This document shows, one piece after another, positions 39,876 to 51,048 of a stretch of DNA of 64,000 nt (the stretch's first letter is position 1; every line of letters starts with the position of its first letter). The notes under the pieces are model-generated. The model did no database searches. It had not been told where the DNA came from and saw only the letters and a list, made by a program, of their open reading frames with translations. Where the stretch lies: contig NZ_LNQS01000008.1 in NCBI RefSeq assembly GCF_001513785.1, positions 124,001 to 188,000 on the forward strand. Direction: 5' to 3'. This DNA is from Rheinheimera sp. EpRS3 (GTDB lineage Bacteria > Pseudomonadota > Gammaproteobacteria > Enterobacterales > Alteromonadaceae). The translations under genes were made by a program, and so were the position numbers.

Positions 39876-40222
39876 TATTTAGTCTCCTGTGATGCTGTGC
39901 CCAGTAAGCCGCCAAGCGCACTGTTAAGATGTTGCCATTCGTCCGTTAGCTGGCTCAGCAGTTCTGCCCCCAGCTCTGATAACTGATAGTAGCGCCGCTC
40001 ACGCCCTTCGCCTTGCTGCCATTCGCTATCGAGCAGGCCTTGCTCGGCTAAACGGCGGATCAGCGGGTATAAGGTACCTTCGTCAATATCAATGCCACCA
40101 TCCTGCAGTTGCTTGCGTAGCGAATAGCCGTAATGCGGCTGCTTTAATGATGCCAGCACTGCCAACACCAGTACGCCACGGCGTAGCTCCAAACGCATTT
40201 TATCCAGTTGTGCAGTTGTCAT
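39875..40222 (-). CDS. PadR family transcriptional regulator
   Basis: A 115-residue winged-helix repressor of the short PadR class. LEKQ-free start RLELRRGVLVLAVLASLKQP, the recognition-helix and wing region YGYSLRKQLQDGGIDIDEGT, LYPLIRRLAEQGLLDSEWQQ and GRERRYYQLSELGAELLSQL. It overlaps the HAAS gene stop-to-start and should control that two-gene operon. An inverted-repeat cluster upstream is the likely operator. Confidence 0.92.
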   Translation of the reverse strand: MTTAQLDKMRLELRRGVLVLAVLASLKQPHYGYSLRKQLQDGGIDIDEGTLYPLIRRLAEQGLLDSEWQQGEGRERRYYQLSELGAELLSQLTDEWQHLNSALGGLLGTASQETK

Positions 40223-40235
40223 AACCTTTGCTTCC

Positions 40236-40294
40236 TATACTGTGCAACACATACTGTGTGATGCACAGCAATATACTAGGCGACGCACAGTATA
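40236..40294. promoter_or_regulatory. Candidate PadR operator cluster
   Basis: TATACTGTGC (40236-40245) and its exact inverse GCACAGTATA (40285-40294) flank the region just upstream of the padR gene. Between them lies CTGTG-TGATG-CACAG (40254-40268), and ATACTGTG is seen again at 40251. Repeated half-sites of ATACTGTG/CACAGTAT type next to a PadR gene are typical of autoregulation. Binding is inferred. Confidence 0.6.
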
Positions 40295-40413
40295 AAAGCA
40301 AGCTGTTGGCATAAAGAAAATTGCATAAAAAATAAGCTGATTATTTTCATATAGTTAGAAAATTGGATATGAGAAAGGCTGAGCTAATGTGGCGTATGGC
40401 TAGTGTAGAGGTA

Positions 40414-41490
40414 TTAGCTAACTGTTTTATCGTCCAGCAATATTAACCAGTTTGGTGCTATGTTCAGGTGGCCGGCAATAATTTTCAGGCATACCAGTAG
40501 CGGAATGGCGATCAATACGCCTACTGCGCCCCAGATCCAGCCCCAGATAAACATCCAGATCACCACCAGCAGCGGGTTCATGTTAAAACGTTTACCCAGC
40601 ACTAACGGAGTAATAAGCTGTGATTCAATGACATTCAGTAGCAGAAATACGCCTGGTAACAGCAAAATCTGGCTCCATTGCTGATACTCAATAAAACCAA
40701 CACCGGTAAGCAGTATGGTTAATAAAAAAGGGCCAAGATAAGGTGCATAATTAAGAATAGTGGCCAGCGCGCCCCACAGCAGAGGGTCTGGTACGTCTAA
40801 CAGGTAAAACACAACTGCAGTAGTTAAGCCCAGCAGGATATTAATAGCACTCACTACCAGCACATAACGCGAGATGTCATCGCGGATAGTGTGAAACATC
40901 GACAGCAGATTCTTCTTGGCGTTAAGTGAGGGCCGCGCCCGCACCATATTGCGCAGCAGGGTATCGCCAAATACCAGAAAAAAGTACGTCAGCATAATAA
41001 TGGCAGCCAGCTGAAACAGCGCCATGGCGGTGGCTTCAGCCATTATTGACAATACCGGCAGCAAACCTGAACCCATAGCGTTTTTTAACGACTCTTTGGA
41101 CGAGCCGCCAGGCAGTACATTCTCTTTTAATGCATCAAAAGAATCGGCCATACCGTCAACGTGTTCGGCAAGCTTGGTGCCAAGCAGTGGCAGGCGTTGC
41201 AGCCATTGTGCTGCAGGTTCGTACAATAAACTGATGCTGTAACCCACCAGCATGACTAATAAAACCAGCACCAGTGCAGCCGAAAGCGATCTGGGCACTT
41301 TAAATTTATTGCTTAGGGTTCGTACAACCGGGCTGGCAAATAATGCCACCAGGCCAGCCAGCAATAACGGCAGAATAAGGCTACGGCAAAAGTAAAATGT
41401 ATAGGCAAGCGCTAAAGCAGCTAACAGCTTCATTGCATTAGTAGAGGCGTAATGTCGCAACCGGGTTGGGCTTAACGGAGCTTCAGCCAT
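40414..41490 (-). CDS. AI-2E family transporter (PerM/TqsA-like)
   Basis: A 358-residue integral membrane protein of the AI-2E/UPF0118 family. The helix pair FYFCRSLILPLLLAGLVALF lies at the start. There is a periplasmic loop around residues 85-135 and a cluster of helices from about 140 on, with family signatures LWGALATILNYAPYLGPFLL, VIESQLITPLVLGKRFNMNP and WGWIWGAVGVLIAIPLLVCL. Substrate of this branch is unknown. It lies 9 bp after the YqjK-position gene and may be the last gene of that small operon. Confidence 0.88.
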   Translation of the reverse strand: MAEAPLSPTRLRHYASTNAMKLLAALALAYTFYFCRSLILPLLLAGLVALFASPVVRTLSNKFKVPRSLSAALVLVLLVMLVGYSISLLYEPAAQWLQRLPLLGTKLAEHVDGMADSFDALKENVLPGGSSKESLKNAMGSGLLPVLSIMAEATAMALFQLAAIIMLTYFFLVFGDTLLRNMVRARPSLNAKKNLLSMFHTIRDDISRYVLVVSAINILLGLTTAVVFYLLDVPDPLLWGALATILNYAPYLGPFLLTILLTGVGFIEYQQWSQILLLPGVFLLLNVIESQLITPLVLGKRFNMNPLLVVIWMFIWGWIWGAVGVLIAIPLLVCLKIIAGHLNIAPNWLILLDDKTVS

Positions 41491-41499
41491 AAAATGCTG

Positions 41500-41751
41500 C
41501 TAAAACCACTGCGTTATCCAGCGAAAGCCAACAACACTGCGCAGCAGTTTTACTGAGCTGTTATGCCGCAGCTGAAATAAACAACCGGCGGTAAAGCTGA
41601 GCATTAAGCCCGGTGCGGAACCGATAAAAGATTTGGCGCGCTGGCCAAGCAGCCAGTTTTCAGCCTGCAACAGCTTTTGTTGCTGTCGTCCCTGCTCTGC
41701 CAAATCGGCTACTTTTAGCCGCTGTTCTACCAGTAACTGATCAATCAGCAT
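41500..41751 (-). CDS. Small hypothetical protein, YqjK-like position
   Basis: An 83-residue protein from the ATG at 41751, which overlaps the stop of the upstream gene by 11 bp; an in-frame extension upstream to 41832 lies inside that gene and is unlikely. The N-terminal half is charged and helical (VEQRLKVADLAEQGRQQQKL), then a short hydrophobic stretch (APGLMLSFTAGCLFQL). Not recognised by sequence. Its place after DUF883-like and holin-like genes corresponds to yqjK in the E. coli yqjCDEK cluster. Confidence 0.6.
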   Translation of the reverse strand: MLIDQLLVEQRLKVADLAEQGRQQQKLLQAENWLLGQRAKSFIGSAPGLMLSFTAGCLFQLRHNSSVKLLRSVVGFRWITQWF

Positions 41752-42259
41752 CTTTATCTTCCTCTTCAGACGCAAAAAATAACCGGCGTATTTGCTGCCA
41801 GGTATGTGAAAACCCAACCTGCGACAATACATGGCCTAAGCTGCGCCAACACCAGAACAACAATCCAAACTGCAATAACAATAAAGCTGCTGCGGTGATT
41901 AAAATTGAGCTGGTAAGCTGAAATAATAAATACCCCAGTAACAGCAAAATGCTGCACCAAAGCAAGATCATACCAGCGCCAAAGCATACCACCAGTGCTG
42001 CAGCTATAGTGAGGCTGCGCGCGGTTAACTGCCATTCAGCTTTAGCCGTTTTACCGGCCAGTTTTACCTGGCCAGTATAACGCTGCTTCACCGACAAACT
42101 CAGGGCTGCCATTTCTGACAGCTGATCTAAAGTTTGTTCGACGAACGGCTTTTTTTGCTTAGCTTGCTCTGATGGGGCCTGCTGCTGAGTTGCTAGTGCT
42201 TCAGCAGTAGCTTGGTCTGGCGCCCCTGAGGGCGCCCCAGAAGCTTCGCGGCTTTGCAT
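41741..42259 (-). CDS. Holin-like (YqjE-type) membrane protein
   Basis: A 172-residue protein. A Gln/Ala-rich cytoplasmic N-terminal region of about 85 residues is followed by two long membrane helices (SLTIAAALVVCFGAGMILLW and LITAAALLLLQFGLLFWCW). The C-terminal tail is acidic (EEEDKDAD). This organisation and its position 9 bp after a DUF883 gene match the phage-holin-superfamily protein YqjE. In E. coli this cluster is linked to stationary phase and membrane-associated ribosomes; here the role is inferred from position only. Confidence 0.65.
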   Translation of the reverse strand: MQSREASGAPSGAPDQATAEALATQQQAPSEQAKQKKPFVEQTLDQLSEMAALSLSVKQRYTGQVKLAGKTAKAEWQLTARSLTIAAALVVCFGAGMILLWCSILLLLGYLLFQLTSSILITAAALLLLQFGLLFWCWRSLGHVLSQVGFSHTWQQIRRLFFASEEEDKDAD

Positions 42260-42268
42260 GCGGCAGCC

Positions 42269-42592
42269 TTAAGAGCGACGTAGCAAAACAGTTACCAGCA
42301 TACCGGCAACAAAAGCAATACCGGCAGTTGCCAACGGGTTTTGAGCCGCTAACTCATGCGTTTTGCTGTAGCCGCTTTGTAATTGCTGCTTAATCTCTTC
42401 CTGCTTGTGCGCCAGAGTTTCCTGCGAGCTGGCAGCGGTTTTGCGTAGCGTATCTTCTGCTGATGCCGCTTTTACCGCCATGGCATCAACTGCATGATGC
42501 GCGGCTTCACTTGCTCTTTCTGTCATCGGTGAATTTAAACCACTATTGGTAGTACCTGTAGCCTGAGCTGTTGCGCTTTGTGAAGTAGCCAT
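42269..42592 (-). CDS. DUF883 (ElaB/YqjD/YgaM) family protein
   Basis: A 107-residue protein. A Ser/Ala/Thr-rich start, a helical region (AAHHAVDAMAVKAASAEDTL, KTAASSQETLAHKQEEIKQQ), then the conserved C-terminal segment YSKTHELAAQNPLATAGIAF with a single membrane helix ending LVTVLLRRS. The NP-x2-A-x-G-I-A-F-V-A-G motif and Arg-Arg tail are diagnostic of the ElaB/YqjD group. These are tail-anchored proteins that bind 70S/100S ribosomes in stationary phase in E. coli. First gene of a four-gene minus-strand run. Confidence 0.87.
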   Translation of the reverse strand: MATSQSATAQATGTTNSGLNSPMTERASEAAHHAVDAMAVKAASAEDTLRKTAASSQETLAHKQEEIKQQLQSGYSKTHELAAQNPLATAGIAFVAGMLVTVLLRRS

Positions 42593-42898
42593 AATATGTC
42601 TCCTTGGTTAACACGAGGAAAGCAGCAAAATGCTGCAATATGCCAGTAAGGTAAATGCAATGGCCATACCAGTATAGAATAAAATAATAAAAACAGACAC
42701 TTATTAAAGTTTTATTATTTTTCTAAGCAGAAAAACAGCAGTAAAAACTGTAGAAGTTACCCACTATCAGTAATCTTTACAGGGTATTAGAATGCAAAAA
42801 AGCGATAACATATCGCCTGCAGTTAAGAGCTGGCCAACTGCTATCTCATCCGGCTTGGTGTTGCGGGCAGGTTGTAACAGTCTGGCGGACTTAGGTTG
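42593..42898. other. Intergenic region without a visible gene
   Basis: 306 bp that is AT-rich, notably 42680-42730. It should contain the promoter of the DUF883 cluster on its left. I see no ORF, tRNA, attC or strong hairpin in it. Confidence 0.4.
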
Positions 42899-43624
42899 TC
42901 AGGAGTCAACAGTGACAAGAAATACCTGCACCTTTTCATTGAGCTGACGCAATTCCCATGGCGGGTTTAACACGGTGATATTTTTTACCCCCAATTTCTC
43001 CAAGTCTGCCACCGTATAATACCAACCAATATACTGCTCTGCTTTATAACGCTCTGTGTAGGCTTGCGCCTGCCCTAAGGTTGTTATTTCTTGTTTAACG
43101 CCAATTTTGCTAAAAAAAGAACTCTCTCTCTGTTCAGAGTGCAGCAAATACGCCTGTAATTGTGCCGTCATCTGACGCCTGAGCTCAGCCTGCTGCTCCG
43201 GCGGAAAAGCCTGGATTTGTGCTTCTAGTTGAGTGTCATCAAAGCTTTGGCTGGAGGCACCACCATGAAATCCTATCAGCGCATGCTTGCCAATTTTTTT
43301 GCTGACGGCGGCGGTAAAAACATAATTAGCACAAGACGACAGGCAATATTCTGCAACGGATAAATTGAGCCCGTGGCTGTGAATTAAATCACCGAAATCC
43401 ATACCCACATTAATCTCGCCGCCTTTACTCTTGATATCAACCCATTTAACGGACTGCTTATGGTCTGAAAAAATACGCTTAAACTCTGCAAAGCCATCTT
43501 CTGTAAGGTCACCATCGTAACTCAGGATTTGAGTCTGGGCGTCATAGCTGACTTTTACAGGTTCGCTGGCAAGAGAATTTCCAGACAGAAATAACGATAA
43601 CAACAGAACCGTTCTTAACAACAT
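42899..43624 (-). CDS. Periplasmic ClpP/crotonase-fold protein (COG3904-like)
   Basis: A 241-residue protein with a signal peptide (LLRTVLLLSLFLSGNSLASE, cut about residue 20). The ClpP-like fold shows as VKWVDIKSKGGEINVGMDFG, followed by the segment LSVAEYCLSSCANYVFTAAV, whose Ser in CLSSCAN occupies the nucleophile position of this class, and GKHALIGFHGGASS. The catalytic His is likely in GFHGG. Proteins with SSCAN are annotated as periplasmic proteases of COG3904; substrate unknown. It may mark the conserved left boundary of the cassette array. Confidence 0.72.
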   Translation of the reverse strand: MLLRTVLLLSLFLSGNSLASEPVKVSYDAQTQILSYDGDLTEDGFAEFKRIFSDHKQSVKWVDIKSKGGEINVGMDFGDLIHSHGLNLSVAEYCLSSCANYVFTAAVSKKIGKHALIGFHGGASSQSFDDTQLEAQIQAFPPEQQAELRRQMTAQLQAYLLHSEQRESSFFSKIGVKQEITTLGQAQAYTERYKAEQYIGWYYTVADLEKLGVKNITVLNPPWELRQLNEKVQVFLVTVDS

Positions 43625-43703
43625 AAAAATCTTTTCTTAATCAGTGTGTCTTGGGTAGATAGGGTCAGTGACGTTGATAATTCTGCTAGTAACTTTTACC
43701 TAC

Positions 43704-43733
43704 ACCAAATCAATGCCACTGGCCCTATTGATT
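43704..43733. repeat. 30-bp imperfect direct repeat, left copy
   Basis: ACCAAATCAATGC...CCTATTGATT, matching 44583-44612 at 25 of 30 positions. Both copies form an AATCAAT/ATTGATT hairpin. The two copies flank the two leftmost cassette genes. Confidence 0.6.
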
Positions 43734-43774
43734 GGGGCCTGTGCCCAGAATGACGCGGATTGTTATAAGACATG

Positions 43775-44059
43775 TTATTTACCCCCCCAGCAAATTACGA
43801 AACACCCCATCGCAACTGGCAAAATTAAAAAATTAAGCGCTGTTTCCAACTGTTTTTTTATTAACGCGCAGATACCGATAATCGTGTGCACAGCAAAAAT
43901 CAATGCACAGATCACGGCTATTGTAATTCGCTGCGTTGTGTATTCGACATCTGGAGAAAACAACATGGCTATACCAATCGCCGGCGTAAGTAAAACGAGG
44001 AACGTAATATGATGCGAGGAATCATTTATAAGTTTTATGTATTTTTCTATGAGGCTCAT
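43775..44059 (-). CDS. Cassette gene: three-span membrane protein
   Basis: A 94-residue hypothetical protein with three hydrophobic segments (ITFLVLLTPAIGIAMLF, ITIAVICALIFAVHTIIGIC and LNFLILPVAMGCFVICW). Not recognised. The ATG at 44059 is preceded by AAGGTCAAG and lies 11 bp after the attC core of the upstream cassette, the usual spacing for a cassette gene. Its own attC, expected at 43.68-43.77 kb, is not convincing: TTATAAC-like cores occur at 43762, but the fold is poor. This is the last gene of the array. Confidence 0.65.
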   Translation of the reverse strand: MSLIEKYIKLINDSSHHITFLVLLTPAIGIAMLFSPDVEYTTQRITIAVICALIFAVHTIIGICALIKKQLETALNFLILPVAMGCFVICWGGK

Positions 44060-44069
44060 TACTTGACCT

Positions 44070-44157
44070 TATAACGCCCCAATTTAGCGTGACGACTGTG
44101 CACGCGGTTGGCGTCGGAACCAGTGCTGTTTGCTGGCGATAAAATTTAATTGCTATA
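44070..44157 (-). other. attC recombination site (degenerate R'' core)
   Basis: On the plus strand: TATAACG (44070-44076), then AATTTAGCG, an imperfect palindrome with CAGTGCTGTTTGCTGG, and AAAATTTAATTGCTAT. The arms AATTT/AAATT pair. It is clearly homologous to the site at 48677-48765, but the distal core reads GCTATAT instead of GTTAGRY and runs into the stop codon of the gene it serves. Probably poorly active. Confidence 0.7.
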
Positions 44158-44601
44158 TCGCTTTTTAAACGACTCATAATCCTTTCCGGGCAAAGATACG
44201 ACATTTTTAACTATGTATCTCTCGCTTCCGTAAGTAATGCTGACGTCCACAGAAACGTCTTTATGCTTGTTGACTTCGATGTCTGAACGATTAAACCCTT
44301 TTATTTCAGAACTTTTCATTTCGACACATGACGAAGCTAACTTTTCAGAGCTCTCGTAAAAGTCCAGGCAAACTTCAGATGCTTTGTGTCCGTTTGCATC
44401 GACTTCTGGATAAATTATTATGATCCAGCTATCGTCCCAAGAGTCACTTTCGCCATCTATTAAACGATGAAATCCTAATTTTTCAGCATCCTCAGCTGTC
44501 ATCGTCTTTTCAGATATGAATACTGAAGTGGCCGAAGAATAGAAAGCCCACAAGACGCAAACAAAAAGTAACAGTTGTCTGTACCAAATCAATGCAACCA
44601 A
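44146..44601 (-). CDS. Cassette gene: secreted hypothetical protein
   Basis: About 151 residues. A hydrophobic N-terminus (RQLLLFVCVLWAFYSSATS) looks like a signal peptide. The mature part contains FHRLIDGESDSWDDSWIIII and CLDFYESSEKLASSCVEMKS, with two cysteines that could pair. No family recognised. No ATG lies before the signal peptide; the TTG at 44601 or a downstream TTG is the likely start. The upstream sequence is the 30-bp repeat, so the start may have been rearranged. AT-rich relative to the core genes. Confidence 0.6.
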   Translation of the reverse strand: MVALIWYRQLLLFVCVLWAFYSSATSVFISEKTMTAEDAEKLGFHRLIDGESDSWDDSWIIIIYPEVDANGHKASEVCLDFYESSEKLASSCVEMKSSEIKGFNRSDIEVNKHKDVSVDVSITYGSERYIVKNVVSLPGKDYESFKKRYSN

Positions 44602-44612
44602 TCCTATTGATT
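44583..44612. repeat. 30-bp imperfect direct repeat, right copy
   Basis: Same unit as 43704-43733 (25 of 30 identical, with identical ends). It overlaps the 5' end of the cassette gene 44146-44601. Confidence 0.6.
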
Positions 44613-44616
44613 AAAT

Positions 44617-44676
44617 TAGCAACGATGGAGCTAAAGCCTACTGTTTTGCGCCCCCTGTTTAATTAACTTGTTAGCC
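44617..44676 (-). other. Probable attC site (short, weak)
   Basis: TAGCAAC (44617-44623) and AACTTGTTAGCC (GTTAGCC 44670-44676) sit 7 bp below the stop of the CbrC-family gene. The distal core GTTAGCC is good; the proximal one (GTTGCTA in array sense) is atypical and internal pairing is limited. Accepted because of its position between two cassette genes. Confidence 0.5.
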
Positions 44677-44682
44677 TTAATC

Positions 44683-45237
44683 TCAATCAAAGTCTATATA
44701 GCCACCGTGTTTGCCACAGTGAATGCATTTAAAAATGTAGGCCGTCGGCGACCCATCAGCATCAAGAGCCTTAAAGAAACTTTCCCACTGCCCATCTTTC
44801 AGGTTGTAAGTTTTCGTTGATTCTTGCTTCAAGTACATTTCTAGCTCTAAGCCGTACTCTTCAATTTCTTTAAAACCAGCACAGCCAAGATAATTTGCAC
44901 CATCATTACAGTGTGTCCACCATTGATCTTGCTGCCAACCTGTAAACCCAGGCGTTCGAAATGTTATTTCTTCCTTAATTTCAGGAGCAATATCATCCCA
45001 ATCACCGTACCCACCAATACCATCGTAGTCGGTAAAATCTGCGTCAAATTTTTTATGTGCTTCACCGTTAGCTATACACCAAGGACAAATTGAGTCTTCT
45101 AACTCTTCTTCAGAGTAAGGTAGCCCACCGTATATATAGCCTCTTGATTCTCCGCAGCATACACATACCTTATCAGACTCTATTATTGAGCCTGACTTAA
45201 GTGGATCTGAATGATATTTAAACTTTGGGAGTTCCAT
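44683..45237 (-). CDS. Cassette gene: CbrC (UPF0167) family protein
   Basis: A 184-residue protein from the ATG at 45237, which has AAGGAGAA 4 bp upstream; an upstream in-frame start lies in the neighbouring attC. Matches the CbrC/UPF0167 family: LPKFKYHSDPLKSGSIIESD, paired cysteines CVCCGES near residue 27, SICPWCIANGEAHKKFDADF, FRTPGFTGWQQDQWWTHCND, and a late CIHCGKHGGYIDFD. The CxxC pairs suggest zinc binding. In E. coli CbrC is tied to colicin E2 tolerance under CreBC control, but the mechanism is unknown. The only well-known family in the array along with DUF4279. Confidence 0.85.
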   Translation of the reverse strand: MELPKFKYHSDPLKSGSIIESDKVCVCCGESRGYIYGGLPYSEEELEDSICPWCIANGEAHKKFDADFTDYDGIGGYGDWDDIAPEIKEEITFRTPGFTGWQQDQWWTHCNDGANYLGCAGFKEIEEYGLELEMYLKQESTKTYNLKDGQWESFFKALDADGSPTAYIFKCIHCGKHGGYIDFD

Positions 45238-45251
45238 ATTTCTCCTTGAGG

Positions 45252-45340
45252 CTAACGCCCGCCACACACGCGAGCAACTTGTTGCGAGTCGAGGAAACCT
45301 CCCAGTTGCCGCAGTCCTCGAGTGCTACGCCCTGTTAGTT
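45252..45340 (-). other. attC recombination site
   Basis: Plus strand: CTAACGCCC (45252-45260) ... CCTGTTAGTT (GTTAGTT 45334-45340). The 40-bp stretch CCCGCCACACACGCGAGCAA and following GTTGCGAGTCGAG is nearly identical to that of the site at 45547-45627, but the distal arm pairs poorly, suggesting a recombined or decayed site. Confidence 0.7.
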
Positions 45341-45351
45341 GCTAATTTTAA

Positions 45352-45522
45352 TTAAGAAGAGCTTTTTGGGCTTTTGCGAAATAAGCCAAACCAAAATAGT
45401 CCCTCAAAAACAAAGCCTAAAATTATAAATACAAATACACCTGTTGAGTTGCCAAAGCTGTAGGAGCTAAGAGCAGCAATAACGAGTACAGCAAGAATTA
45501 AAAACCTATAAATTTTATTCAT
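45352..45522 (-). CDS. Cassette gene: small two-span membrane protein
   Basis: A 56-residue protein from the ATG at 45522 (AAGGACA 6 bp upstream). An upstream extension to 45597 would read through the attC and is rejected. Two hydrophobic helices: IYRFLILAVLVIAALSSYSF and GVFVFIILGFVFEGLFWFG. A short basic/Ser tail (RKSPKSSS) follows. No known family. Small membrane proteins are a common cassette product class. Confidence 0.65.
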   Translation of the reverse strand: MNKIYRFLILAVLVIAALSSYSFGNSTGVFVFIILGFVFEGLFWFGLFRKSPKSSS

Positions 45523-45546
45523 AATTTGTCCTTCATGTTTGACGGC

Positions 45547-45627
45547 AACTAAAGCCCGCCACAAACGCGAGCAACGTGTTGCGAGTCGAGCACCCAAAGG
45601 GCGCGTTTGTGCTGGCGCTTGTTAAGT
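45547..45627 (-). other. attC recombination site
   Basis: Plus strand: CTAAAGCCC (one core base changed from CTAACGCCC) ... GCGCTTGTTAAG with GTTAAGT at 45621-45627. CACAAACGCG and CGCGTTTGTG pair perfectly over 10 bp, and GCAACGTGTTGC forms the inner hairpin. A good fold; the proximal core mutation may block recombination at that side. Confidence 0.78.
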
Positions 45628-45634
45628 GCGCACA

Positions 45635-45880
45635 CTATAGAGACCAGCCATGTTGTTTTGCAATAATAGCGACCAAACGCGGAATATCTTGTTTTGCTGC
45701 AGCAATAAAATCCTGATCTGCAACAGTAGCTCCAGCCAGTTCAATATCATCGCTGGCCGTTTGTATGAAATTTGAACCAGATGAATGATCTCGCCCCTCT
45801 ACAAACGAGACCCAAGGGCCATCAGTTGCAGCACTGCAACGTTCGAGAATGTTTTTAAGCTCATCTTTGGTTATATCCAC
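45635..45880 (-). CDS. Cassette gene: conserved hypothetical protein
   Basis: About 81 residues from the GTG at 45880, which has AAGGAA 9 bp upstream; a GTG 18 bp further up is the alternative. It shows a pattern I have seen in phage and actinobacterial hypotheticals: RCSAATDGPWVSFVEGRDHS, SSGSNFIQT, then ATVADQDFIAAAKQDIPRLV ending AIIAKQHGW. No catalytic motif is evident. Likely a small cytoplasmic alpha/beta protein. Function unknown; a link to phage-type proteins is only an impression. Confidence 0.65.
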   Translation of the reverse strand: MDITKDELKNILERCSAATDGPWVSFVEGRDHSSGSNFIQTASDDIELAGATVADQDFIAAAKQDIPRLVAIIAKQHGWSL

Positions 45881-45898
45881 AGCGTGATTTCCTTGCAC

Positions 45899-45997
45899 AC
45901 TTAACTATTTGCTAATGGACAGCCGAAACGCAGTTTAGGCTGTCCCGTGGAGGCCACGTTGTTTGTGGCCGGAGCGAAATTAAGCAACTTGTTATAC
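45899..45997 (-). other. attC recombination site
   Basis: ACTTAAC (45899-45905) and GTTATAC (45991-45997) are both good cores. TTTGCTAAT pairs with ATTAAGCAA with one extra base, the asymmetry expected of an attC. GGACAGCC/GGCTGTCC and GGCCAC/GTGGCC form the internal hairpins. A convincing site. Confidence 0.85.
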
Positions 45998-46006
45998 ATA
46001 TAGACG

Positions 46007-46351
46007 TCAATACAGCACTTGAAAATCATTGTAAAAGACCAAAAAACACTCACCGTCAGGACAGCTATATTTCGCATTAAAATACTTATACCCATATTCA
46101 TGACGAGAGTGGTAAATAGTGAAAATGCCTTCATTTCCTTCAATTTTGTAAACTGTCGCTCCGGTTTTTTCAGGGTATACCTTTATTACATGGCCAAGAT
46201 GAGTTATCGGAAGCCCACCTTTAAATGCACTAATTACTTCTTGCTTTACTGAACCACTAACATCACCAACTATTTCAATAGCATAGGAACGGTAGCAATA
46301 TGTTAAAAGTATGGAAAATACAAAAATTTTTATTAAATGTGGCATATTCAT
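46007..46351 (-). CDS. Cassette gene: small secreted protein
   Basis: 114 residues from the ATG at 46351, immediately after the attC core; a second ATG two codons on is equally possible. Signal peptide MPHLIKIFVFSILLTYCYRS (cut near SYA). The mature part has VVGDV-like start IVGDVSGSVKQEVISAFKGG, THLGHVIKVYPEKTGATVYK, and YSCPDGECFLVFYND with a cysteine pair. No family recognised. Periplasmic or outer-membrane location is likely. Confidence 0.65.
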   Translation of the reverse strand: MNMPHLIKIFVFSILLTYCYRSYAIEIVGDVSGSVKQEVISAFKGGLPITHLGHVIKVYPEKTGATVYKIEGNEGIFTIYHSRHEYGYKYFNAKYSCPDGECFLVFYNDFQVLY

Positions 46352-46357
46352 AAGTAC

Positions 46358-46435
46358 GTATAACGCCCCGCGCATACGCGCGGACTTGTGAGCGTCGCAG
46401 GGGCCGCAGGCCCCGAATGCCGCGGTTTGTTATGT
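46358..46435 (-). other. attC recombination site
   Basis: GTATAAC (46358-46364) ... GTTATGT (46429-46435). CCGCG/CGCGG arms pair next to the cores, with GGGGCC/GGCCCC as the inner hairpin. Near-textbook short attC. Confidence 0.88.
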
Positions 46436-46441
46436 GTTTTT

Positions 46442-46744
46442 TTAAGCACGTTTAATACCCCAAAAATACTTTGTTAAAGCACATGCCGGTATTAAAAATG
46501 CCGACCATAAGACTGAAAATACCAACACAAATATCGGGGCTGATAATGCGCCACTCTCAAGTTCTAAATTAAGCAGCGTAGCTGTTACCAGCGATAACAC
46601 TATACTCGCAAATGCCATCCGGTTTGGAGGCATGACGAATTTTGACTGAAGCCACTTAGCAGCCAATAGCCACATTAACCATGCTGGTGAAGCTGCCACT
46701 ATCAGTAGAAAAATAACCAAAACAATATAGATAGCTATTTCCAA
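46442..46744 (-). CDS. Cassette gene: three-span membrane protein
   Basis: About 100 residues. Three hydrophobic segments (IAIYIVLVIFLLIVAASPAW, MAFASIVLSLVTATLLNL and APIFVLVFSVLWSAFLIPAC). No family recognised. There is no ATG at the 5' end; the reading frame opens with TTG at 46744, exactly where the IS1111-like element joins. Either the original start was lost on insertion, or the TTG is used with GGGAGTCATCAGG from the IS end just upstream. Its promoter supply must now come from the IS or not at all. Confidence 0.6.
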   Translation of the reverse strand: MEIAIYIVLVIFLLIVAASPAWLMWLLAAKWLQSKFVMPPNRMAFASIVLSLVTATLLNLELESGALSAPIFVLVFSVLWSAFLIPACALTKYFWGIKRA

Positions 46745-46803
46745 CCTGATGACTCCCTACAGGCAATGTGCAAACACATAGACATAATGACTCCCCACGA
46801 GGT

Positions 46804-46882
46804 GCTGACCTCCGGGAACGTGGGTTAGCTTTGCAGCCAGAGCCATACTGTATTTGATGAAGATACAATACTGGAGGTCAGC
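46804..46882 (+). promoter_or_regulatory. Inverted repeat sequestering the transposase ribosome binding site
   Basis: GCTGACCTCC (46804-46813) is the perfect inverse of GGAGGTCAGC (46873-46882). The right arm contains GGAGGT, the ribosome binding site just before the GTG start. In a transcript starting outside the IS the two arms could pair and hide the site, limiting transposase synthesis by read-through. Confidence 0.6.
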
Positions 46883-48037
46883 GTGGTTAACAATAGCATA
46901 ACTTTTATTGGCTTAGATACGCACAAAGAATTCTTTGAAGTGGCGTATCTGGAAGATAGCCGTGATGCAAAACCGGTCAGTCTGGGCCGTATTAACGGCA
47001 CCAAACCGGCATTACAAAAACTGGTACGGCAATTTGAATCGAAATACCCCGGTTCCACATTGCACTTTGTCTATGAAGCCGGCCCCTGTGGTTACTGGAT
47101 TTACCGCTTTCTCACCAGCCTAGGCCATTGTTGCTATGTGGTCGCCCCCTCACTCATTCCGAAGAAAGCCGGTGAGCGGGTAAAAACTGATAAGCGCGAT
47201 GCGTTAAAGTTGGCCTTACTGCTGCGCTCTGGCGACATTGAACCTATTTATGTACCCGAGCCGGAAGATGAAGCGATGCGGGATTTATCCCGCGCCCGTG
47301 AAACAGCCATGAAAGATTTAAAGGATGCCAAATACCAGCTCAAGGCCATGCTGCTGCGTAATAACATCCGCTGTGAGGTGCAGGACAACTGGTCGGCCAA
47401 ACACCTGCGCTGGCTTACTGAATTGATATTGCCGCCCCCTTCGCAGCAAATTGTGTTGCAAGAAGCCATTCAAACTATTACCGAGCGTATCCGCCGTTTA
47501 GAGCGGCTGGACAACGAACTCAGTTACCATGTTAAAAACTGGCGTTACTACCCTGTCGTTAAAGCCATTCAGGCCATGCGTGGAGTGCGCTTACTCGTTG
47601 CTGTTGGCGTTATTGCCGAGCTTGGTGACTTATCCCGTTTCGACCATCCCAGAAAGCTGATGAGCTATCTTGGGTTGGTTCCCTCAGAACACTCCAGTGG
47701 CGGCAAACGCAAGCAAGGCGGTATTACCCGCACCGGCAATACCCGCGCCAGACGCTTACTGGTTGAAGGCGCACATACTTATCGCTATGCCGCCAGGATA
47801 TCAACAGAGCTGCAAAAACGGCAGGAAAGCCTGAGCAAAGAAATCGTCGATATCGCCTGGCAGGCACAACTTAGATTGTGCAGGCGTTATCAGCGCTTAA
47901 TGAAACGCGGCAAGCACTACAACCTGGTGGTTACAGCCATTGCCAGGGAGATGATTGCCTATATCTGGGCGATAGCGCGTGAAGTGGTGCTGGCACCGGT
48001 TAACCCGGCAAAACGGTTATCCAGGGTGCCGGCATGA
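46883..48037 (+). CDS. IS110 family transposase (DEDD_Tnp / Transposase_20)
   Basis: A 384-residue transposase starting with GTG after GGAGGT. The N-terminal RuvC-like DEDD domain has Asp12 (IGLDTHKE), Glu65 (VYEAGPCGY), Asp103 and Asp106 (KTDKRDALKLA). A coiled-coil linker (about 135-215) is followed by the C-terminal domain, with AMRGVRLLVAVGVIAELGDL, LMSYLGLVPSEHSSGGKRKQ and GGITRTGNTRARRLLVEGAH; Ser271/Ser272 is the catalytic serine candidate. All catalytic residues are present, so it may be active. Transcribed opposite to the cassettes. Confidence 0.95.
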   Translation: MVNNSITFIGLDTHKEFFEVAYLEDSRDAKPVSLGRINGTKPALQKLVRQFESKYPGSTLHFVYEAGPCGYWIYRFLTSLGHCCYVVAPSLIPKKAGERVKTDKRDALKLALLLRSGDIEPIYVPEPEDEAMRDLSRARETAMKDLKDAKYQLKAMLLRNNIRCEVQDNWSAKHLRWLTELILPPPSQQIVLQEAIQTITERIRRLERLDNELSYHVKNWRYYPVVKAIQAMRGVRLLVAVGVIAELGDLSRFDHPRKLMSYLGLVPSEHSSGGKRKQGGITRTGNTRARRLLVEGAHTYRYAARISTELQKRQESLSKEIVDIAWQAQLRLCRRYQRLMKRGKHYNLVVTAIAREMIAYIWAIAREVVLAPVNPAKRLSRVPA

Positions 48038-48069
48038 GTAACAGGTTAGAGTTAATGCATTGGATCAAG

Positions 48070-48165
48070 CATCGGGTGTGGCACAACCACCGACGGCGTT
48101 AGGATGGCATCAGCCTCACGGCTGTTGAACCTCGAACCTAGACTGAAGACAGGTGCCACGGCGGA
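48070..48165 (+). ncRNA. Candidate seekRNA/bridge RNA of the IS1111-like element
   Basis: IS1111-type elements encode their target-choosing RNA between the transposase stop and the right end. Here GTGGCAC (48078-48084) and GTGCCAC (48153-48159) can close a domain. It contains hairpin CAGCC-TCAC-GGCTG (48111-48124) and, in a loop, GGCGTTAGG (48095-48103). That string is the attC core (GGCGTTRRR) in which the element is inserted. Exact ends and the donor-binding part were not resolved. Confidence 0.5.
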
Positions 48166-48333
48166 ACAAGTAAGGTAGGCTCTGTTAGCGAAAGCTGATA
48201 ATCCACGAATACCAGCATGACAACCGACGAACATTACCTGCTTCATCTGGTGCATTAACTCGCTTTAACGGCAAAAGATGGTTCTTAAATGAGCAGGCTT
48301 TTACTCAACCTGCTTGACGTGGGGAGTCATACC

Positions 48334-48413
48334 AACGCCGCCAGCAAGCGCGGCTTTGCTGTGAAGGCGAAGCAGCAGCGGAAAAGACGTCGCCTTGACT
48401 GGCCTTGTTAGTT
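48334..48413 (-). other. attC recombination site interrupted by the IS
   Basis: Plus strand AACGCCGCCAGCAAGCGCGG ... GGCCTTGTTAGTT (GTTAGTT 48407-48413). GCCAG/CTGGC arms pair and GCTTTGCTG/CAGCAGCGG-type inner sequence follows. The core ends at the IS junction: in array sense GGCGGCGTT then GG and the IS. The rest of the core is displaced to the left of the IS. Confidence 0.8.
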
Positions 48414-48426
48414 GCCAATTTAAACC

Positions 48427-48660
48427 TTACTCAAACAGTAATTTAAAAAAATTAACAGCTGCCCATAAGAATAAACAAGCAAGAAATAATGACAGGGACA
48501 TGCTTACCCAGTATGAGAACGAGCTGTCATTTATATTTACTGTATTACCATACTTTAAATGCGCCACTCCTGATACGTAACTTTTATAGAGAATTACAAA
48601 CATAAAAAAAGACATAATGCTGCTGCCAATAGCTAGAACTAGTATCTTGATATTTAACAC
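48427..48660 (-). CDS. Cassette gene: two-span membrane protein
   Basis: A 77-residue protein starting with GTG at 48660 (AGAGGTGG upstream). Two hydrophobic segments: IKILVLAIGSSIMSFFMFVI at the N-terminus and WVSMSLSLFLACLFLWAAVN near the end. The linking part YKSYVSGVAHLKYGNTVNIN is polar. Not recognised. It lies 14 bp above its attC, and 17 bp below that of the preceding cassette. Confidence 0.65.
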   Translation of the reverse strand: MLNIKILVLAIGSSIMSFFMFVILYKSYVSGVAHLKYGNTVNINDSSFSYWVSMSLSLFLACLFLWAAVNFFKLLFE

Positions 48661-48676
48661 TGACCACCTCTAGCAA

Positions 48677-48765
48677 CTAACGCCCAAATTTAGCGCGGAA
48701 AGCCGCGCAGCGGGTTGACGTCGCAGCCAGCGCTTTTTGCTGGCGATAAAATTTGCTTGTTAGGG
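48677..48765 (-). other. attC recombination site
   Basis: CTAACGC (48677-48683) ... GTTAGGG (48759-48765). Arms CAAATTT/AAATTTG pair over 7 bp, and GCGCGG/CCGCGC plus CCAGCGC/GCTGG hairpins lie inside. The best-preserved site of the array; homologous to the degenerate site at 44070. Confidence 0.88.
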
Positions 48766-48777
48766 CCGACAACCACC

Positions 48778-49194
48778 TCAATCGTCCGAACCACTATAAA
48801 TATCTAAATCTAAAACAATTTTAAGCTGGCCAAGTGCCAGCATGATTTCAGGTGACAAGCTCAAGCCATCATTGCAGTTGCCCATAAACAAGCCGCAGAA
48901 CATATCAACTTTGTAGTTCTGACAAAGCCTTTCCCATACCGCTAAGTCACTTGTTAGCTGGGATAAAATTTCCGCAATCGGGGCGTTTAGATCTTCAGGC
49001 TCTCTCTTTTCAGCATGTAAATGCCAGCTACCTATTTTGGCAATCCGCACCTTTCCGCTGACTTTGCCAACCACTTCATCACCTTTCTTTTTACTTTTAG
49101 TCGCTTTAGCGCCAAGTAAATTTGATACGTCTTCAGGTATCAAATCTTCCCCGAAGATCCGGAGTGTTGCTTGTGAATATTCAAGTGCCCCCAT
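48778..49194 (-). CDS. Cassette gene: DUF4279 domain-containing protein
   Basis: 138 residues from the ATG at 49194, which lies 6 bp after a core site GTTAGGG (49201-49207), the expected position for the first cassette gene. A TTG-started extension to 49248 would cross that core and is rejected. DUF4279 features: YSQATLRIFGEDLIPEDVSN, LLGAKATKSKKKGDEVVGKV, then IAKIGSWHLHAEKREPEDLN and a late strand VDMFCGLFMGNCNDGLSLSP. Often found as an immunity-like or stand-alone protein; function unknown. Confidence 0.8.
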   Translation of the reverse strand: MGALEYSQATLRIFGEDLIPEDVSNLLGAKATKSKKKGDEVVGKVSGKVRIAKIGSWHLHAEKREPEDLNAPIAEILSQLTSDLAVWERLCQNYKVDMFCGLFMGNCNDGLSLSPEIMLALGQLKIVLDLDIYSGSDD

Positions 49195-49200
49195 TAAAGG

Positions 49201-49480
49201 CCCTAACAGCTTATTCAAAGGATCTAAACCCGCGAGTTGCGTGTTCAAGATCCTGCAAGTTACAAATTAGAGCTGAGTTTATTCTGCTAGTTAAATGTAA
49301 ATCAAGAATTTTTATCTTGTAGCAATTTCGGCCTTTGCAAATCTCGGGTTTCAAACCCGCGAGTTGCAGATAAAAAACTCAAGCCCGATTACTGTTTATT
49401 TAATCAGTCATAATTTGCAGCCGTAGGGGTATTATTTATCACTACAACACTTAAGTTAGCGGTGCTAACCGCCAAAAAAC
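49201..49480. other. Array head between the first cassette and lysS
   Basis: No integrase gene is present. Contains a core GTTAGGG (array sense, 49201-49207) and, about 85 bp upstream of it, ATTTAAC; AGGATCT/AGATCCT between them can pair, so this may be an eroded attC or attI. The 15-mer GCAACTCGCGGGTTT (array sense) occurs twice (about 49227-49241 and 49352-49366), the second within a longer palindrome CGGGTTT-G-AAACCCG. GTTAGC-GGT-GCTAAC lies at 49455-49469. Confidence 0.5.
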
Positions 49481-49481
49481 A

Positions 49482-49510
49482 AAAAAGCCAGACACAAGGT
49501 CTGGCTTTTT
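49482..49510 (-). terminator. Rho-independent terminator after lysS
   Basis: AAAAAGCCAGAC / GTCTGGCTTTTT, a 12-bp perfect stem with a 5-nt loop, followed on the minus strand by further T. It lies 18 bp after the lysS stop and should isolate the cassette array from the lysS transcript. Confidence 0.9.
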
Positions 49511-49527
49511 CACATCAGTAAATAAAT

Positions 49528-51048
49528 TTACTTATCGTGGTGTAAGCGCATATGCGGGAACAGGATAACGTCGCGGATTGAGGCGGCGTCGGCCAGTAAC
49601 ATTACCAGACGGTCGATGCCGATGCCCTGGCCTGCTGTTGGTGGTAAGCCGTGCTCTAATGCTGTTACAAAGTCTTCATCATAGAACATAGCTTCGTCGT
49701 CACCGGCGTCTTTCTGCGCTACCTGATGGCGGAAACGCTCGGCCTGATCTTCAGCGTCATTTAACTCGCTAAAACCATTGCCCAGCTCGCGGCCGCCGAT
49801 AAAGAATTCAAAGCGGTCGGTAATTTCCGGGTTATGGTCGTTACGGCGTGCCAGTGGTGATACTTCAGCCGGGTATTCGGTAATAAAAGTTGGGTGGCGC
49901 AGCTTAGTTTCTACCAGCTCGTCAAACACTTCCATTAAAATACGGCCATGGCCATAGTTGGCTTTAACTTCAATACCTAAGCTTTTCGCCAGCTCTGCTA
50001 CTGCTTCACGCGTTTCCAGATGCGCTTTGGTCAGGTCCGGGTTGTAATGCAAAATAGACTCGGTAACCGACATGCGCGCAAATGGCTTGCCAAAGTCGAA
50101 CACTTCGCCCTGATACGGCACTTCAGTGCTGCCCAATACATGCTGCGCTAAGCCGCGGAATAACTTTTCGGTTAAATCCATTAAGTCGTTGTAATCGGCG
50201 TAAGCCCAGTAGAATTCCAGCATGGTAAATTCCGGGTTGTGGCGGGTTGATACGCCTTCGTTACGGAAGTTACGGTTAAGCTCAAATACTTTTTCAAAGC
50301 CGCCAACTACCAAGCGCTTTAAATACAGTTCTGGCGCGATACGCAAAAACATCTGCATATCCAGTGCGTTGTGGTGGGTTTCAAACGGACGCGCTGAAGC
50401 GCCGCCCGGAATCGCTTGCAGCATTGGCGTTTCAACTTCTAAAAAGCCTTCGTCGTTAAAGAAACGGCGAATGTAAGCCACAGTTTTGCTGCGCACTAAA
50501 AAGGTATGGCGTGACTGCTCGTTGGAGATAAGGTCCAGGTAACGCTGGCGGTAACGCGCTTCGTTATCGGTTAAGCCGTGGAATTTATCTGGCAATGGGC
50601 GCAGTGCCTTGGTTAGCAGGCGGATATCACTTAGCCATACCGTTAGCTCGCCGGTTTGGGTTTTAAATAAATGGCCGGTGGCACCAATAATGTCGCCTAA
50701 GTCCCACTTTTTAAACTGGTCGTTATATACACCTTCAGCCAGGCTGTCGCGCGCGACATACAGCTGAATTTTACCGCCCATATCGGCAATAGTGGTAAAG
50801 CTGGCTTTACCCATAATACGGCGCGTCATAATACGGCCGCCTAAGCTTACGGTAATTTTTTCTGCTTCCAGCTCTTCTTTGCTTAAATGGTCGTATTTGG
50901 CAATCACGTCGCTGGAGATGCTGTCACGGCGAAAATCGTTCGGAAACATAAAGCCGTCTTCACGCAGTGCGGCCAGCTTATGTTTGCGCTCAGCAATCAG
51001 TTTATTTACGTCCTGAATTTCTTCTTGTGGTTGCTGTTGGTCAGACAT
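49528..51048 (-). CDS. lysS: Lysyl-tRNA synthetase (class II)
   Basis: A 506-residue class II enzyme. The N-terminal anticodon-binding OB-fold carries [20 protein letters not shown]. Catalytic motif 1 region [20 protein letters not shown], motif 2 [20 protein letters not shown], motif 3 [20 protein letters not shown], and the C-terminal LFPHMR. Length is normal. It is downstream of prfB (43-bp gap), the classical prfB-lysS operon. Confidence 0.98.

Follow-up and report, generated by a model that had tools for sequence, protein, structure and literature searches.

Here we describe an insertion sequence of the IS110 superfamily in the window, the whole 64,000-nucleotide stretch of Rheinheimera sp. 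EpRS3 DNA that was analysed, whose predicted 3' non-coding RNA very probably guides its recombinase to the core of attC sites. The element lies between the GTT and the A of an attC core. Among its relatives, the two-domain fold of the predicted RNA is conserved and the guide bases match the target and vary with it, and the target is not duplicated in a 93%-identical copy. The principle has already been published for the seekRNA of ISKpn4 and ISPst6, as described in excerpts of PMC11187229. New here are a branch of ISSso6-like transposases, which is frequent among marine Gammaproteobacteria and occurs once in the integron of an NDM-1 plasmid, and, as judged by comparison of sequences, a natural retuning of the guide, a second guide, a predicted two-domain RNA with a candidate donor part and a limit of about 8 bp on the target. 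No ISSso6-like attC element was found in the titles and abstract openings of the open-licence literature, among the matches listed.

The ends of the element (Table 1) are the same as those of the 93%-identical copy, L014, where they were proven against a natural empty site. The 384-aa transposase combines the two domains that define the IS110 superfamily in one protein, the DEDD/RuvC domain PF01548 (E 9.8e-19) and PF02371 (E 4e-20). Residues D12, E65, D103 and D106 and the SG of GLVPSEHSSG, which we take to be the catalytic residues of the transposase, were invariant in five aligned sequences. A non-coding segment of about 280 bp (48038-48317) follows the gene on its 3' side. A protein search of the window's genome yielded no second copy of the transposase, and the only traces from a DNA search of the same genome were short, decayed remnants of related elements, all from the left part, at C12:207-368 and C10:65437-65477.

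Table 1. Features of the element and its flanks (window coordinates; a slash within a sequence marks the insertion point).
Feature	Position	Strand	Basis or remark
Whole insertion sequence, 1,554 bp	46780-48333	+	perfect 13-bp inverted repeats near the ends, 7 bp (left) and 3 bp (right) inside them
Left flank ACAT, other part of the split attC core	46776-46779	.	on the minus strand GTT/ATGT
-10 half CATAAT of predicted circle-junction promoter	46783-46788	+	letters included in the search pattern
Left subterminal inverted repeat ATGACTCCCCACG	46787-46799	+	repeat pair, 100%
Transposase/recombinase gene, 384 aa	46883-48037	+	open frame and Pfam (DEDD_Tnp_IS110, Transposase_20)
Predicted two-domain guide RNA, bridge-RNA-like	48049-48261	+	stem 48049-48071 with 48239-48261, 23-nt pair, 83%
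Predicted target domain, seekRNA-like, 82 nt	48078-48159	+	outer stem GTGGCAC with GTGCCAC around guides and variable hairpin
Putative guide 1 (T guide) CGGCGTTAGG	48094-48103	+	predicted to pair with the top strand over the insertion point, T/AACGCCG
Putative guide 2 (B guide) GAACCT-AGAC	48134-48143	+	same sense as left flank and first 4 bases of the element
Candidate donor guide AATACCAGCATGA	48208-48220	+	repeats right end ATACC and first bases AG of the left end
-35 half TTGACG of predicted circle-junction promoter	48314-48319	+	17 bp from the left-end -10 half in all 81 elements that have both ends
Right subterminal inverted repeat CGTGGGGAGTCAT	48318-48330	+	repeat pair, 100%
Right flank, rest of the attC site (AACGCCGCC ... 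CTTGTTAG)	48334-48413	.	stem score above all 187 control sites

In its layout the element agrees with IS1111 elements, having subterminal inverted repeats within the range of 11-13 bp, at 7 bp and 3 bp from the ends, and a long non-coding region downstream of the transposase gene. It might therefore be simply a member of the published group of attC-targeting IS1111 elements (ISKpn4, ISPst6 and ISPa25 type) and nothing more, a reading that we consider unlikely. These elements and their seekRNA were published by Siddiquee et al. 2024 (PMC11187229), and the excerpts of that paper describe an attC target at one end of the site, subterminal repeats with 7-bp and 3-bp extensions, and a 3' non-coding RNA with the top-strand match before the bottom-strand match, all as found here; the size of the RNA is also similar, 82-86 nt there and an 82-nt predicted target domain here. 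It is the transposase that differs. The same excerpts give 330-350 aa for IS1111 transposases and place those of ISKpn4, ISPst6 and ISPa25 in the IS1111 family with about 340 aa, whereas the transposase here has 384 aa and is ISSso6-like, so that these three are set apart by their descriptions. Among the matches listed, the nearest named relatives by PLSDB annotation were ISSso6 (49.6-49.9% identity), ISSfr2 (48.6%) and ISEc45 (41.3%), and identity to IS4321 and IS5075 was 24.3-25.7%.

A tree was built from 31 transposases, namely 24 of 25 chosen sequences (L065 was dropped for its internal stop) and 7 references. The transposase of the window grouped with ISSso6, ISEc45 and ISSfr2, and a branch with 100/100 support, subject to warnings about very long branches, separated this group from IS4321, ISKpn2 and two 340-aa relatives; the ISSso6 group attached among the relatives of the window's element. 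Owing to its 384 aa and its placement in the tree the element is not filed as an IS1111 member, although its predicted working is IS1111-like. The IS1111 label that the sequence-only reading had given it thus fits the layout, and fails for the transposase, which stands apart from the IS1111 transposases tested. No element named ISKpn4, ISPst6, ISPa21 or ISPa25 occurred among the matches listed in the transposase searches; the search with the IS4321 transposase returned at least 5,000 records, with near-identical IS4321 and IS5075 copies among the matches listed. IS4321 and IS5075 (IS1111 family) share the transposase superfamily with the element and differ from it in their target, reportedly the ends of Tn21-type transposons, going by the title of one paper. 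The attC-targeting IS1111 elements are said to have been discovered by Tetu and Holmes and by Post and Hall. Group II introns, by contrast, work by a ribozyme-based mechanism. Those of class C-attC also insert into attC sites, according to excerpts of PMC9229058.

The right flank of the element begins with AACGCCGCC and reaches CTTGTTAG about 73 bp further on, after a matching stem, with an anchored stem score of 11.5, and the sequence on the left ends with AAACACAT; as judged from these flanks, the element splits the attC core at GTT/A. The copy L014 is located at GCATCT/AACGCCGCC in the attC site of an arr-3 cassette on a Klebsiella plasmid. Its empty twin, plasmid p14EC033f, joins GCATCT directly to AACGCCGCC, giving GCATCTAACGCCGCC as the uninterrupted site, and comparison of the two therefore indicates that target bases are neither duplicated nor lost on insertion. 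The flank of the L014 site matched 1,426 plasmid records, one of which holds most of the query including the end of the element. The arr-3 cassette with L014 belongs to a class 1 integron; its plasmid, from Klebsiella pneumoniae, is of the IncC type and carries NDM-1, and L014 is thus a marine lineage inside a clinical integron.

For the site in the window, L195, from the same genus, carries a 71% homologous cassette that ends AAACACAT/AACGCCC at an unoccupied attC-like site (stem score 8.5). A closer homologue of the left cassette, at 92% identity in L194, reads on as CACAT/AACATTTT and has no stem of the attC kind, which counts against guidance to attC. Searches of plasmids with the left cassette gave zero matches. 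The surrounding region, 43700-49500, is an array of cassettes whose small genes (UPF0167, DUF4279 and uncharacterised others) lie on the minus strand. No integron integrase was found within the array, and the sole match in the genome above the integron-integrase cut-off lies on another contig (C7:110623-111570). Adjoining the insertion, ATGACTCCCTAC at 46749-46760 resembles the inverted repeat of the element in 11 of 12 positions; it may be only the ribosome-binding region of a cassette gene.

The first set of elements compared numbered 90 and consisted of the window's element, 7 plasmid records, 80 loci in species genomes (the best 80 of 196 relatives) and 2 viral contigs. Hosts in this set include Alteromonas, Pseudoalteromonas, Colwellia, Vibrio, Shewanella, Neptunomonas and Rheinheimera, and the nearest relative in it, drawn from the best 80 of 196 genome loci, is from Rheinheimera sp. 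UJ63 (96%). The base before the element was T at all 88 left junctions and the bases after it AAC at all 83 right junctions, extended to AACGCC in 59 of 77. A second set, for which the flank table was kept apart and attC scoring covered L136-L155 only, likewise showed T/AAC at most junctions, with C in place of T before L107 and L115 (L115 being the same copy as L174), AAA after L128 and GGC after the weak match L106. With these few exceptions, the junctions agree with the fixed point in the attC core and the single orientation that characterise attC-targeting IS1111 elements. A covariance model of the RNA (R1) detected it in 33 of the 196 genomes searched from the window's family and in 4 of 369 from its class, both counts including the genome of the window.

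The sequence-only reading had drawn attention to GGCGTTAGG, equal to the attC core consensus GGCGTTRRR, within a region closable by GTGGCAC and GTGCCAC. The string is indeed on the plus strand at 48095-48103, and the two arms around it were confirmed at 48078-48084 and 48153-48159. In the window GGCGTTRRR was counted 11 times where 5.65 would be expected, and 2 of 100 shuffles reach 11; the string GGCGTTAGG alone is no evidence, and we infer its role as a guide from the relatives. In the window, CGGCGTTAGG is the reverse complement of CCT/AACGCCG, and CGGCGTTAGGATG is complementary to the element's own right junction (inverted pair, 85%). The last two bases of guide 1 (GG) expect CC in the target, where the local left flank CAT offers CA, leaving one match. 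On its own minus strand, the guide DNA at 48095-48103 reads CCT/AACGCCG and so resembles one of the element's targets.

Of the 90 elements, 73 had both a 10-base guide that could be read and 7 or more bases of right flank, and 72 of these were distinct. In these 72, guide 1 matched the element's own right flank at 231 of the 288 positions from +4 to +7; the permutation mean was 199.5 and none of 10,000 permutations was as high, the permutations here and below ignoring the relatedness of the elements. GTTA, together with a G two bases on, was invariant in all 42 aligned sequences, the window included. Within a group of 15 elements with GTTATG guides, mostly from Alteromonas, 48 of 60 positions matched against 37.5 by permutation, 74 of 20,000 permutations being as high with kinship ignored. 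Full agreement with the right flank (7 of 7) was found in L052 (guide GGAAGTTATG for CAT/AACTTCC), L065 (AAAAGTTATG for CAT/AACTTTT, with a stop inside its transposase gene), L054 (GGGTGTTATG for CAT/AACACCC) and L041 (GGGCGTTATG for CAT/AACGCCC); imperfect matches include L019 with 3 of 7 and L051, L055 and L056 with 5 of 7. By these counts, from the kind of comparison across relatives that the sequence-only reading had proposed, guide 1 and its target vary together beyond permutation.

The second putative guide corresponds to the left flank. In the window, 3 of the last 4 left-flank bases match it, with CCT in the guide and CAT in the flank, and exact 4-base matches occur in L014 (ATCT), L018 and L021 (both ACAT) and L020 (GCAT). 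Covariation with the left flank is weak: 125, 178 and 330 of 5,000 permutations were as high at positions -2, -3 and -4, respectively, and there is none at -5. The order of guide 1 followed by guide 2 places the top-strand match 5' of the bottom-strand match, as in IS1111 RNAs. Like that of a bridge RNA, the predicted target loop has complementarity to each of the two target strands, the bottom-strand guide being the weaker.

The fold was assessed on alignments of 42 and 25 of the 90 elements, picked for diversity, L024 with its longer insert being excluded from the 25. As a single sequence, the 94-nt segment does not fold significantly (z -1.12, 25 of 200 shuffles as good), whereas for the 221-nt region the fold is better than in shuffled versions, of which 3 of 200 did as well (z -2.71). 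Across 42 sequences, 98.7% of the cells of the outer stem and central hairpin are paired and 10 of 15 pairs are changed on both sides, a value reached by none of 500 shuffles; sliding the partner by 1-3 columns reduces pairing to below 50%. Across 25 sequences, the longer region forms two domains inside a 21-pair stem, with 32 of 53 pairs changed on both sides and again none of 500 shuffles as high. From this fold inside a long stem, the segment with GGCGTTAGG would form the target half of a larger RNA, predicted to measure about 213 nt. The proposal of a targeting RNA in the 3' non-coding segment of about 280 bp is thus supported by guide-target and structural covariation, and the guide as the reason for the insertion site by these together with the junctions and the empty twin site; the sequence-only reading had seen the target half and had missed the second guide, for the left flank, and the second RNA domain.

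An Rfam search of 40000-50000 gave only matches under the gathering scores of the families. Covariance model R1 had no match in ISSso6, ISSfr2, ISEc45, IS4321, ISKpn2 or two unnamed relatives. ISSso6, ISSfr2 and ISEc45 share with the element a non-coding sequence downstream of the transposase gene, and pieces resembling the window's RNA are visible by eye in ISSso6 and ISSfr2, though R1 does not match them.

Recognition of the folded attC hairpin or of its DNA through protein contacts of the recombinase, with GGCGTTAGG in the RNA as a coincidence or relic, would account for the fact that most scored sites are attC-like. Sites were scored by an anchored stem score against 187 control sites, which replaced a weak test based on local alignment and shuffles. 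The right flank exceeded the 95th percentile of the controls in 42 of 72 cases (about 5% for the controls themselves), and of 20 copies in three single-contig genomes, 12 scored at least 7. Some sites with the look of attC to the eye fail this test, and others pass it although they are not attC. However, copies of the same lineage are found at T/AACGC sites without an attC-like stem, and in 7 of 72 (L016, L017, L063, L088, L093, L095 and L096) an open frame longer than 200 aa starts from the junction and takes up the right flank, two of these, L093 and L096, passing the stem test yet opening into frames of 297 and 368 aa. These seven copies, which probably interrupt protein genes, still read T/AACGC, which argues that the element reads a short sequence supplied by attC and not the attC fold. 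Since, in addition, the guide bases change with the target and the RNA scaffold is kept through compensatory changes, recognition by protein contacts appears highly improbable. Among the copies at open frames, L016 and L017, on two plasmids of one Pseudoalteromonas strain, have the same right flank with a 396-aa open frame, and their left flanks differ.

For an RNA-guided element, attC would be the usual home because its conserved core supplies T/AACGCC, and other T/AACGC sequences can serve; on the comparisons made here, the guide reads about 8 bp of sequence and not attC as a structure. The idea of an attC-directed system accordingly survives as regards the usual site and gives way to a short sequence as what the guide aims at. 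Insertion of elements with the same string at unrelated targets had been named as an observation that would speak against guidance; some copies do lie outside attC, and their targets share the match to the guide and, in the first set, T/AAC. The least probable reading, that the 3' structure is merely a terminator or processing hairpin of the transposase mRNA with no targeting role, fits the non-significant single-sequence fold of the 94-nt segment (z -1.12) and is contradicted by unpaired guide bases that are among the best conserved positions and by guides that match the target strand by strand in the seekRNA order described for IS1111 in excerpts of PMC11187229.

The second RNA domain holds a candidate donor loop, in which ATACC-AG repeats the five bases at the right end of the element and then the two at its left end, as they would meet at the joint of a circular form. 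ATA-n-CAG was invariant in the 25 aligned sequences. The motif was compared with the right end in 82 of the 90 elements, leaving out 7 without a readable right end and L021, which lacks the motif as searched. Where the right end is ATATC, the RNA has ATATC in 20 of 21 elements, the exception being L081 with ATACC; where it is ATACC (or ATGCC, in one case), the RNA has ATACC in 35 elements and ATATC, which a G-U pair would accommodate, in 26. The association of motif and right end gave a Fisher p of 1.9e-5, with kinship ignored. Separate target and donor pairing parts are the plan of the bridge RNA of IS110 and IS1111 (Durrant et al. 2024, PMC11208160); the donor part here is a candidate only, the ATACC-AG repeat, and agrees with what excerpts of that paper predict for IS1111, a bridge RNA encoded in the right end whose donor-binding bases lie in a multiloop. 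The left flank of L115 ends in ATACC, the five bases of the element's own right end, as in the circle junction.

Across the joint of the two ends, TTGAC(A/G) was present in 80 of 81 elements (TTAACG once), followed by CATAAT, CACAAT or CATTAT; L014 was left out of this count, and neither the -35 half nor the spacing was part of the search pattern. The predicted promoter exists only when the ends meet in a circle, which fits the circle-formed promoter described for the IS110 and IS1111 families in excerpts of PMC11187229.

By analogy with published work on IS1111 and IS110, the ends of the element would join into a circle, where the joint promoter, TTGACG-17 bp-CATAAT, would drive the transposase and the RNA. 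The recombinase would bind the RNA, guide 1 (GGCGTTA) would pair with the top strand over the right half-site and one base on the left, guide 2 (CCT-AGAC) would pair with the left side of the bottom strand, and the circle junction ATACC/AG would be held by the second RNA domain; strand exchange by the recombinase would then lead to insertion in one orientation. Excerpts of PMC11187229 report that the donor must carry the target flank and that in ISEc11 a swap of guide and flank redirects insertion.

RNA guidance would explain, at the level of sequence, the presence of some insertion sequences in integrons. The relatives provide natural examples of guide and target changing together that are directly testable, and the conserved scaffold with its variable guides gave the covariance model R1 for finding more. 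One predicted RNA seems to hold both target and donor parts, which bears on how IS1111-like elements recognise their own ends, as treated in excerpts of PMC11187229 and PMC11208160. We give about even chances to the broader scenario that a second, ISSso6-like branch independently gained attC targeting, that its two-domain guide RNA is repeatedly retuned to attC cores present in its hosts (AACGCCG, AACGCCC, AACACCC, AACTTCC and AACTTTT), and that one copy from this marine pool entered a clinical class 1 integron.

Small inserts or breaks were found at various places of the non-coding RNA region in L025, L031, L050, L058, L112, L157 and L158. In L032 and L132 of one genome and in L159 and L161 of another, the guide is split exactly at GTT/A by a palindromic insert of about 47 bases (GCCTACATGGATGTAGGTAAGG...), and the guide of L134 is probably split by it as well. 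This GCCTACATGGATGTAGGTAAGG insert family is scattered, with matches in 4 of 59 genomes of the family and 38 copies in one of them.
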